A DNA stretch of 64,000 bases from Mycobacterium kiyosense (GTDB lineage: Bacteria > Actinomycetota > Actinomycetes > Mycobacteriales > Mycobacteriaceae), in contig AP025179.1 of NCBI GenBank assembly GCA_021654635.1, forward strand, positions 4,588,001 through 4,652,000, in the 5' to 3' direction. Position numbers and translations under genes: made by a program. Shown here piece after piece: positions 16,422 to 41,364 of the stretch. The stretch's first letter is position 1, and every line of letters begins with the position of its first letter. A model generated the notes under the pieces. That model had not been told where the DNA came from. It saw nothing but the letters and a program-made list of their open reading frames with translations, and ran no database searches.

Positions 16422-16727
16422 GGCGCCCCGGCGTCACGCCAGCGCAGCTGTGGCCGCCCCGGGTTGCGCCAGCGTGACGTTCGGCGACGCGACTCGGCAA
16501 AGAGCCCGTCTGGACCGGCGGCCCACCAGTCGGATTGGCGAGGTGGGCGTGATAGGAGCGCCTACCGGACAGGCGATCCTGAGCCCTCGGCAGGCGGCGC
16601 ATCCTGGACTCGAAAACAACTTAAGCCTATAGTTTTGCGTGAATGCGCCCAGGTCTCCGAACTGCGCAGTGCGGGATATGACCGACCAGCCCCTTTGGCG
16701 CCGAACTGTTTTGGGAGGCGATAGGCA
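16422..16727. other. 306-bp intergenic region
   Basis: I see no convincing gene here. An 8-bp inverted repeat (CGTCACGC at 16432-16439 against GCGTGACG at 16472-16479) follows the DUF1214 stop with a 32-base loop and might help termination, but it lacks a T-run. The 3' part holds a site resembling the operator that recurs in the catabolic block, and the ferredoxin ribosome site. Confidence 0.5.
16618..16634. promoter_or_regulatory. degenerate copy of the recurrent palindrome (AACT-N9-AGTT) before the ferredoxin gene
   Basis: Half-sites AACT and AGTT are separated by nine bases, the same spacing as the perfect site at 41342-41364. It lies about 94 bp before the ferredoxin start. Only four bases per arm match each other, and the G/C-pair positions of the consensus differ, so this is the weakest member of the set. 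Confidence 0.35.
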
Positions 16728-16922
16728 ATGAAGGTGCGCCTTGAACGCAGCAAGTGCGCTGGGCATGCGCAGTGCTATGCGGTGGACCCGGATCTGTTCC
16801 CGATCGACGACGAAGGCTACTCAATCCTGCAGGACCACGTCGTCAGCGCCGGCGACGAACAGGTGACGCGCGATGGCGTCAACGCCTGCCCGGAGCTTGC
16901 GCTGATCCTCGAAGAGGACTAG
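16728..16922 (+). CDS. ferredoxin ([3Fe-4S] type)
   Basis: The protein has 64 residues. Cys10 and Cys16 in CAGHAQC, with Cys54 in ACPELA, give the three-cysteine pattern of small actinobacterial 3Fe-4S ferredoxins, with His in place of the fourth cysteine. Such ferredoxins feed electrons to P450s and sometimes to Rieske oxygenases. The ATG follows a GGGAGG site. It stands alone in front of the P450/Rieske operon and is the obvious electron donor for it, although no ferredoxin reductase gene is present in the window. Confidence 0.92.
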
Positions 16923-16945
16923 CGACTATCGGCGCTGCCGGCTAA

Positions 16946-16966
16946 TAACCTTCTCGCCATAGGTTA
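16946..16966. promoter_or_regulatory. palindrome TAACCT-N9-AGGTTA (recurrent operator)
   Basis: Perfect 6-bp arms are separated by nine bases, in the 364-bp gap between the ferredoxin stop and the SDR start at 17287. It matches the perfect site at 41342-41364 in arm sequence and spacing. The rest of the gap shows no gene apart from the second, weaker site near 17138. Confidence 0.62.
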
Positions 16967-17134
16967 AAGCGTCGCAGACCCGCGCCGCAGGTCCGACGCG
17001 TGACACCTTCCTGCCGCGACCCGTCAGCCGGAAGATATCCGCCTTTCAGGACAATTTTTCGGTAGATCCGCGACACCGTCGGGGCCGACCGGACTGGTGA
17101 CCGCAATCCAGCTGACATTTCTTGATTGACGTTT

Positions 17135-17157
17135 CATACCTAGTGTCGTAAGTTTAA
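17135..17157. promoter_or_regulatory. degenerate copy of the recurrent palindrome before the SDR-P450-Rieske operon
   Basis: The left half-site is ATACCT and the right half AAGTTTA, with eight or nine bases between depending on alignment. It lies about 130 bp before the SDR start at 17287. It resembles the site at 27942-27964 in having AGTT in the right arm. With the site at 16946 it would give the operon two operators. Confidence 0.4.
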
Positions 17158-17286
17158 GGCGACAGCCAAATGTAGCCGGGGTCACACCGGCGTGCTGCCA
17201 CAGTGCCACGACCTCGCCCATCAGCCCAGGGCTTCGATACCGGAGGCCATTCGGGCCGGGGGCGCACCGCCAACCGAAGGAGCACG

Positions 17287-38967: not shown

Positions 38968-39000
38968 TTGACACGTCGTAACCTACTGAAATAAGGTTTT
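38968..39000 (+). promoter_or_regulatory. promoter TTGACA with overlapping palindrome GTAACCT-N9-AGGTTTT
   Basis: TTGACA (38968-38973) is followed by a copy of the recurrent palindrome (38978-39000) covering the expected -10 spacing. It lies 64 bp before the acyl-CoA ligase start at 39064. The arms agree with the perfect site at five of seven and six of seven positions. Confidence 0.6.
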
Positions 39001-39063
39001 TGCGTTGGCGGCGATTCCCGGCCGGCCGCGCCATGACCTGTCCAAAGGGAGAGAGCGCATGCG

Positions 39064-40585
39064 ATGACCGAACTGGTGACCGACGGTCTGAGCTATTGGG
39101 CGAGGCAATCCCCCCACCGTGCCGCCATCGTGTTCGACGGCGTGGATAGCGTCGACTACGCGGCTCTGGATCGCTGGACCGACAGTGCCGCAACGCATCT
39201 GGCCGCTGCGCTCAGTCCTGGGGAGCGGGTCGGGATCATCGGTGACAACAGCCTGGAGTGGGTCGTCGCAGCAATCGGAGCCCTCAAGTTGGGGGCCGTC
39301 GTCGTCCCCTTCAACAATCGCTTCACCCCCGACGAGCTGCGCTATCTGATCGACGACTCCGGCCCCAGCCTGATCCTCGCCGACGCCGCCCACCAGAGCC
39401 GGGCATCGGCGGCCAGACAAGGGACCACAACGCAGCTTTGGCGTCTAGAGGATTTCACCGGGTTGCGTCATCAGCAATGCCCCGCGGTTGCGCGCCGCGA
39501 GGAGGGAGGCGCAGCCGGACGACATCACGCAAATTGTCTACACCAGTGGAACGACTTCGCACCCAAAAGGTGTCGTCTTCACCCACCGCAGCACGTTCAA
39601 CCTGGTCGCGGACCTGGCCATCACCGAACCCGCACTTCGGCCCGGTGCCCGAATCATCTACACCCTGTCGATGTCGGGGGCCCCGGGACTGCTCTGGCAC
39701 ATTCTGCACCCGTTGATCCGGGGTATGACTATCTACTACGAGCGTGGCTTCGATGCCGCGACCACGCTACACCGACTCGCCGACGAGCGGATCCAGATCC
39801 TTTCAGGCGTACCTGTTCTCTACGAGCGCATGGCGTCCCATCCGGATTTCGGGTCGGTCGACCTGTCGGCACTGGAACTGGCGACGGTCGCGGGTGCCCC
39901 GGCCCCCATCGCGACGATGAAGTCCTGGCTGAGCAAGGGTGTCGTCGTGCAGCAGGCCTACGGAATGACGGAACTGGGGGGGCTTTCCACCATCAACCCC
40001 AAGGAGCAGGCCGGCCAGTGGCCTGAATCAATCGGTGATGGAACGGTTTTCACGCGCCTGCGGGTGGTGCGGCCCGACGGCACCGACTGCGAGCCCGGCG
40101 AGCCCGGCGAGATCATCGTGTCCGGTCCGGGCATCGCGCCGGGGTATTGGCGAAACGAGGACGCTTACGCCGCCGCGATGCGTGCCGGCTGGTTTCACAG
40201 CGGCGACGTTGGTATCAAGGACGCCAACGGGATTCGCGTCGTGGACCGGCTCAAAGACATCATCATCACGGGCGGTTTCAACGTCGCCCCCTCCGAGATC
40301 GAGGCGGTGGTCAGCGCGCTACCCGGCGTGCTCGAGACGTGCGTGGTGTCGGCGTCCGACCCGAAATTCGGTGAGGTGCCTGCGACTGTCATCTACACCG
40401 AAGAGAACCTGACTGCGCAAGCAGTGATCGAACACTGTCGAGCACATCTTGCCGGCTACAAAGTGCCGCGCCACGTCATCATCCAACACACGCCGTTACC
40501 ACGGATGGCCAGCGGGAAGATCGCCCGACGCCAAATCCGCGAGGCTCACCCCGAGCTGATGTCAGACACTCAAGCGGTCGGCTGA
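39064..40585 (+). pseudogene. AMP-forming acyl-CoA ligase, one frameshift
   Basis: The ATG follows GGGAGAGAG. The first 130 codons give the N-terminal ANL domain (GIIGDNSLEWVVAAIGALKLGAVVVPFNN, in parts). Between about 39450 and 39490 one extra base moves the reading to the next frame, where YTSGTTSHPKGVVF (P-loop), YGMTELGG, HSGDVG, DRLKD and ASGKIARR complete the enzyme. Corrected length is 506 residues, like the ligase at 23473. It activates a carboxylate substrate or intermediate. It converges with the TetR gene at 40597. Confidence 0.85.
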
Positions 40586-40596
40586 GGCCACCGGTT

Positions 40597-41310
40597 TCAG
40601 GAGGCTGTCGGCTCTTTGAGTTCCGCAGTGGCAGAGCCGAACTCATTCCAATGTAGCGGTGGCGGCGCTGTCTCGGGGACCTGCGGCGCCGCGCCGCGCA
40701 GGAAACTACGAATCGACTCGGCGAACACGCCGGTGGCGGATCGCTGATTGGCGGCGGCGGCCGCGACCAGCACCGGTTCGGTGGCCGGATCGGCGTTGGC
40801 AAATAGGCGCCCCCTGCCCTCGTCACCATGCATCGCTTCGGTGACGCCGGCGCCCAAAACCAGTTTGTCCAGCCCATCCATGATCAACACCACTTGCTCC
40901 AGCGGCACGCCGATCTCGATCAGATACGCCGCGGACTTGTTGTAGTTGCGGATGAGCACATCGCGCGGCATGAACTGCAGCAGCAGCGGCACCGCATTGT
41001 GGTGCCGCAATATCGATTCACGAAACGCCAGACTCAGCGCCACAAGCCACTCCATCCAGTTGGGCACCGACGTAGGGTCGGGTAACCGCGTCTCGACCAC
41101 TATCGCCCGCGCCACCGCCTTCAAGATCTCCGCCTTGTCCTCGAAATGGTGATACAACGACGGCGCTTGCACATTGAGCTCCCGCGCGAGGCGGGGCAGG
41201 CTGAACGCGTCCAAGCCTTCCGTATCGATGATGCGCAACGACGCCTCCACTACGGCGTCACGACGGATTAAGGGCTTGGAGGGACGGGGCATGGTCACAT
41301 TATCGACCAT
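40597..41310 (-). CDS. TetR/AcrR family transcriptional regulator, likely reader of the recurrent palindrome
   Basis: The protein has 237 residues (231 if started at the ATG at 41292). The helix-turn-helix FSLPRLARELNVQAPSLYHHF is followed by a TetR_C domain with a Leu-rich helix. The perfect TAAACCT-N9-AGGTTTA palindrome sits 32 bp upstream of the start, as expected for autoregulation. Related sites precede most units from 16.6 to 39 kb. It may therefore be the repressor of the catabolic block, with a CoA thioester or substrate as inducer; that is inference. Confidence 0.87.
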   Translation of the reverse strand: MVDNVTMPRPSKPLIRRDAVVEASLRIIDTEGLDAFSLPRLARELNVQAPSLYHHFEDKAEILKAVARAIVVETRLPDPTSVPNWMEWLVALSLAFRESILRHHNAVPLLLQFMPRDVLIRNYNKSAAYLIEIGVPLEQVVLIMDGLDKLVLGAGVTEAMHGDEGRGRLFANADPATEPVLVAAAAANQRSATGVFAESIRSFLRGAAPQVPETAPPPLHWNEFGSATAELKEPTAS

Positions 41311-41341
41311 CGGTTGCTCAAACGCAGCAACGCGGCCGAGA

Positions 41342-41364
41342 TAAACCTAAAATCAGCAGGTTTA
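41342..41364. promoter_or_regulatory. perfect palindrome TAAACCT-N9-AGGTTTA (type site of the set)
   Basis: Two perfect 7-bp arms flank a nine-base spacer just before the TetR gene (start 41310), abutting the stop of the membrane-protein gene. It is the best copy of the motif found at 16946, 17135, 27810, 27942, 32606 and 38978. Confidence 0.78.

Follow-up and report, generated by a model that had tools for sequence, protein, structure and literature searches.

Palindromes predicted to be operators of a TetR-family repressor across a likely catabolic island in Mycobacterium kiyosense

Introduction

In steroid-degrading actinobacteria, the TetR-type repressors KstR and KstR2 control catabolic regulons from palindromic operators, given as TNNAACGTGTTNNA and AAGCAAGNNCTTGCTT, and the KstR regulon has nearly 100 genes (PMC8228715). 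The tetracycline repressor reads bases +2 and +3 with Arg28 and Gln38 (PMC7102968). Eleven operator motifs have been predicted for mycobacterial TetR regulators, which that paper identifies by their M. tuberculosis gene numbers (PMC4482099). Here we describe a repeated palindrome, TAAACCT-N9-AGGTTTA, in a 64,000-nucleotide stretch of the Mycobacterium kiyosense genome (the window; C1:4588001-4652000 of 6,346,450 bases). The window encodes two TetR-type regulators, which we call TetR1 and TetR2, and the perfect copy of the palindrome lies before TetR1. We think it very probable, from sequence comparisons, that the palindromes are operators at which TetR1 represses one likely catabolic island and its own gene.

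TetR1 belongs to the TetR family by its domain and its modelled fold: the N-terminal TetR_N helix-turn-helix is recognised (PF00440, 43.4 bits against a cut-off of 24), and the structure model has the classical all-helical TetR fold. Compared with the tetracycline repressor, TetR(B/D), TetR1 keeps the residues that would face the half-site that its sites share with tetO. In contrast, the +2 and +3 bases of its sites differ from those of tetO, and so do the residues that would read them (in an alignment with class D TetR, Arg28 becomes Pro and Gln38 becomes Ala). The dyad is also longer, at 23 base pairs, and the neighbours of TetR1 that we scanned are catabolic enzymes, not an efflux pump; no transporter families were found among the window open reading frames (ORFs) scanned between 13.0 and 46.6 kilobases (kb). 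TetR1 is not the tetracycline repressor, though it may work like a classical TetR switch.

The sites were originally predicted to be unlike the operators of KstR or KstR2, and by eye our 72-site consensus, about TAAACCTAATGNCATTAGGTTTA, indeed matches neither of the motifs in PMC8228715. Those regulons are large there, whereas the predicted TetR1 regulon is local. The motifs of PMC4482099 are, as described there, also palindromes predicted from conservation beside uncharacterised TetR genes; this comparison is by description and not by motif, and the present motif may overlap with them. Among enzymes, the two halves of the island's double coenzyme A (CoA)-transferase match the two solved subunits of benzylsuccinate CoA-transferase (BbsEF), which are separate proteins in the known system and fused in the island. 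BbsA is of the DUF35 type. Thiolase 3 of the island is likewise paired with a DUF35 protein, and its match to the BbsB model is weak (93 bits; cut-off 750). Unlike in benzylsuccinate degradation (BbsEF and BbsAB), P450 and Rieske enzymes surround the CoA-transferase, so the island pathway is probably aerobic. Among the papers listed by our searches of the open-licence literature, none described the regulon or its gene cluster. It appears to be an uncharacterised TetR regulon, unstudied as far as we have seen, that is present in several actinobacterial genera.

Results

Conserved palindromes precede the genes of the island

The repeats reported in the original prediction, with a perfect copy at 41342-41364, are present (Table 1; we name sites by their first position). 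Searching the window for TAAACCT-N9-AGGTTTA with up to three mismatches gave five matches against 0.23 expected, and none of 100 shuffles reached five. Sites 27942 and 17135 have more than three mismatches to these arms, yet they score 24.9 and 24.0 on a site matrix trained partly on them, which is comparable to the five pattern matches (23.1-27.4). The weak site noted near 16618 (23-mer 16615-16637) scores only 16.9. The nine-base spacer is not random either, as the consensus indicates. A weak additional candidate at 47356 (score 11.7) was left out of the site set.

All eight named sites have counterparts in the same places in M. triplex, whose TetR1 is 87% identical, and in a second relative, G131. 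Across these three genomes, the arms agree in 358 of 384 pairwise comparisons (93%) and the spacers in 119 of 168 (71%), as against 808 of 1920 (42%) for the ungapped flanks. We then scanned 18 regions from this and related genomes with a matrix of 18 training sites, which came mostly from those same regions, and found 72 sites scoring at least 18, none of them in the Gordonia region. No site centre lies inside a labelled gene, while labels (which are tblastn matches to window proteins only) span 44% of the sequence. The labels that start within 350 bases of a site are most often the Rieske ORF (19 times), TetR1 (13), the SDRs (11 and 8), and orf298 (7); six sites have no label starting within that distance. 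The gene order of the island varies between Nocardia, Pseudonocardia, and others, with sites before different genes there, so the palindromes are not merely inherited stretches.

A TTGAC box precedes 18 of the 72 sites, with the spacing that a repressor blocking the promoter would need. Two window sites had been thought to cover promoters behind TTGACA; with this spacing there are three sites behind TTGAC(A/G), namely 17135, 27942, and 38978. It had also been claimed that each site lies just before a transcription unit. This probably does not hold for 16945, a likely orphan: in relatives it faces a divergent gene for an acyl-CoA dehydrogenase, which this genome lacks. With this comparative support, the palindrome regulon is, by sequence, real and conserved, and the case for it is stronger than in the original prediction.

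The sites track TetR1 across genomes

Of 297 genomes sampled within the genus, 28 have a relative of TetR1 (E ≤ 1e-35), as do 10 of 397 genomes sampled across the order (this genome is counted in both). Within the genus, at least two exact sites occur in 24 of the 28 genomes with TetR1 and in 13 of the 269 without it. In total, there are 105 exact sites in the 28 genomes, where the reversed pattern occurs 13 times, and 76 in the other 269. We read the places of the exact sites in 18 TetR1-containing genomes: of 71 sites, 64 are no more than 100 kb from a TetR1 relative, and the more distant ones are one in G595 and six in G288. With a matrix built without TetR1's own site, 23 of 49 TetR1 loci score at least 12 upstream (21 of 47 after removing this locus and one locus that was fetched twice), and none did in either of two control sets of 49. 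Some genomes without a site before TetR1 carry exact sites at a distance of a few kb. On plasmids, all the TetRs that matched TetR1 were below 60% identity.

In this genome, only the strict exact class of palindromes is local. The strict consensus, WWAHCTW-N7-WAGDTWW, was derived from window sites and adopted after loose patterns showed no genome-wide enrichment. All six of its exact matches lie within 87 kb (C1:4604946-4691960), and five of these are the window sites that supplied the pattern. The sixth is a ninth site (C1:4691939-4691961), outside the window and 63 kb past TetR1; it precedes an ORF for a molybdopterin oxidoreductase, and an ORF for an AveC-like membrane protein is upstream. 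A random spread across the genome had been named as grounds for giving up the original prediction. In our scans, which used patterns instead of a matrix, the strict sites are clustered and the loose ones are not enriched. Clustering, conservation, and co-occurrence with TetR1 together support a regulon of local reach in which the adjacent TetR would repress one pathway.

Several observations weigh against the palindromes being TetR1 operators. Genome-wide, the loose pattern with up to three mismatches has 33 matches (32 for the reversed control) and the strict one with up to one mismatch has 25 (26 for the control); four of the 19 one-mismatch matches fall in the window, three of them at named sites. 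At least one exact site occurs in 58 of the 269 genomes without TetR1, as well as in 24 of the 28 with it. The four TetR1-containing genomes without an exact site are G132 (50% identity), G144 (40%), G274 (51%; the genome is 80% complete), and G295 (35%). The six distant matches in G288 (C31:1601495-1651037) are over 300 kb from its TetR1 relative; several have TCTTC-like arms, so this cluster is perhaps another local regulon. Upstream of TetR1 itself, 26 of 49 loci have no site. Most of these are near or below 53% identity, among them Gordonia alkanivorans L024 (48%), where 20 kb contain a single weak match (12.2), but L067 and L041, both at 63%, also belong to them; L041 scores only 9.2. Nine of the 18 sites with TTGAC boxes are three places in three close genomes, so these relatives are not independent. 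Finally, several of the putatively controlled genes are broken in this genome.

Genes and sites of the island

Family searches identify a ferredoxin, an SDR, a P450, a Rieske oxygenase, orf298, a DUF35 protein, a thiolase, an acyl-CoA ligase, and TetR2, then a second SDR, a second Rieske oxygenase and P450, two aldehyde dehydrogenases, two further DUF35-thiolase pairs, the double CoA-transferase, a second ligase, and TetR1. For the start of TetR1 we chose the one that its relatives resemble over an alternative ATG at 41310.

Table 1. Predicted sites and genes, in window coordinates
Feature	Position	Strand	Remarks
Weak palindrome before ferredoxin gene	16615..16637		score 16.9; conserved in two relatives
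Ferredoxin	16728..16922	+	Fer4_15
Palindrome, probably an orphan predicted operator	16945..16967		gene faced in relatives missing here
Palindrome before SDR-P450-Rieske operon	17135..17157		TTGACG 17126-17131; predicted -10 17149-17154
SDR, frame-broken	17203..18211	+	family match ends part-way; frame unlike two relatives
First P450 (frame-broken), then first Rieske oxygenase	18193..20626	+	P450 over two overlapping ORFs; Rieske and Ring_hydroxyl_A
orf298, DUF35 protein, thiolase, acyl-CoA ligase 1	20634..24999	+	family searches; no Pfam match for orf298
TetR2, rival regulator	24965..25687	+	TetR_N
Second SDR	25787..26773	-	family search
Second Rieske oxygenase, frame-broken	26590..27768	-	catalytic and Rieske domains on separate ORFs
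Palindrome before divergent second Rieske oxygenase	27810..27832		pattern match, matrix, conserved
Palindrome before second P450	27942..27964		TTGACA 27933-27938; predicted -10 27956-27961
Second P450 (frame-broken), aldehyde dehydrogenase, DUF35, thiolase	27969..32565	+	family search
Palindrome before double CoA-transferase	32606..32628		pattern match, matrix, conserved
Double CoA-transferase, aldehyde dehydrogenase, thiolase, DUF35	32629..38432	+	family searches
Palindrome before ligase 2	38978..39000		TTGACA 38968-38973; predicted -10 38992-38997
Acyl-CoA ligase 2, frame-broken	39064..40585	+	AMP-binding over two overlapping ORFs
TetR1, proposed repressor	40597..41292	-	TetR_N; co-occurs with sites; start taken at 41292 (MPRPSKPLI)
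Operator-like palindrome before TetR1	41342..41364		0 mismatches; conserved; predicted autoregulation; 26.2 on a matrix built without this site

Beyond TetR1 are two adjacent genes for luciferase-like monooxygenases (42298-44463), with no named site before either. In G131, we noticed an extra site (L081:931-953, score 25.1) just before an alpha/beta-hydrolase ORF that adjoins a MaoC-like gene.

Discussion

We propose that a dimer of TetR1 would bind the palindromes across the island's promoters and keep RNA polymerase off, and that it would repress its own gene from the 41342 site in the same way. Release would presumably follow when an intermediate of the pathway fills the ligand pocket. The pathway itself may oxidise an alicyclic or terpenoid-like compound with the P450s and Rieske oxygenases, followed by activation with CoA and thiolytic cleavage. 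Our attempt to name the substrate from relatives of the enzymes failed. The first P450 is nearest to a CYP125 ancestor and then to CYP101D1-type enzymes, and the second P450 is nearest to CYP101D1-type enzymes; the Rieske protein is nearest to carnitine monooxygenase and aromatic dioxygenases, and the CoA-transferase to benzylsuccinate CoA-transferase. Among the best 25 NCBIfam matches for each island protein that we examined, all were below the cut-off.

The regulon might have been functional in an ancestor and be a relic here, with TetR1 and the operators persisting after the pathway decayed. At least five island genes are broken: the SDR, both P450s, the second Rieske gene, and ligase 2 each run over more than one frame (within 17203-20626, 26590-29378, and 39064-40585), while relatives mostly read open, except that ligase 2 is in pieces in G131 too. 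Also, the acyl-CoA dehydrogenase gene that G131 and M. triplex have between the ferredoxin and the SDR is gone (16923-17135): where they have 1.4 kb, this genome has about 166 bases, and its closest match to the gene elsewhere is 52% identical. On the other hand, TetR1, the first Rieske gene, ligase 1, the thiolases, the CoA-transferase, and the aldehyde dehydrogenases read open, and the arms of the sites are conserved. The frame breaks and the missing gene reflect either decay of the island or assembly errors. We consider a relic possible if somewhat doubtful; it is compatible with the palindromes being TetR1 operators, so our confidence in the one does not come at the expense of the other.

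It is quite unlikely that the palindromes are operators of TetR2, with TetR1 a bystander or binding elsewhere. TetR2 does lie inside the island, and the islands of Nocardia and Pseudonocardia include relatives of it, but the sites co-occur better with TetR1 than with TetR2. At least two sites occur in 11 of 15 genomes that have TetR1 and not TetR2, as against no site at all in the four genomes with TetR2 and not TetR1 (p = 0.018), though the TetR2 side is thin because three of those four matches are weak (38-43% identity). Upstream of TetR2 relatives, scanned with a seven-site matrix over a longer stretch than for TetR1, only two of 19 are clearly above 12 (19.7 and 14.3), and one more rounds to 12.0. 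As a separate observation, TetR2 relatives occur in island loci of several genera, and there is no such palindrome before TetR2 itself.

Less likely still is that the repeats are not repressor sites but intergenic sequence kept by descent, or a promoter element that the genes have in common. A quarter of them do overlap a TTGAC-type promoter, and the islands of close relatives are collinear, but the sites are dyad-symmetric, their arms are far better conserved than their flanks, they track TetR1 across the genus, and they precede different genes where the island is ordered differently, as in Nocardia, Pseudonocardia, and others.

Taking the TetR1 operators as our preferred explanation, we tentatively suggest, as an idea somewhat less likely than not, that TetR1 represents a branch of the tetracycline repressor lineage that kept the outer half-site of tetO, with the two base-reading residues swapped and the two inner bases along with them. 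It would have become the common switch of an accessory island for degrading alicyclic or terpenoid compounds in Mycobacterium, Nocardia, and Pseudonocardia at the least, and would have outlived its pathway in this genome.

For an uncharacterised TetR subfamily, this supplies a gene set together with a predicted operator and a DNA-reading rule that can be tested. The motif marks the extent of the island, including a gene 63 kb away, and it could be used in actinobacteria as a small inducible promoter. It also offers a route to the substrate of an accessory actinobacterial pathway, as the compound that makes TetR1 let go of the 23-mer is probably one of the pathway's intermediates.
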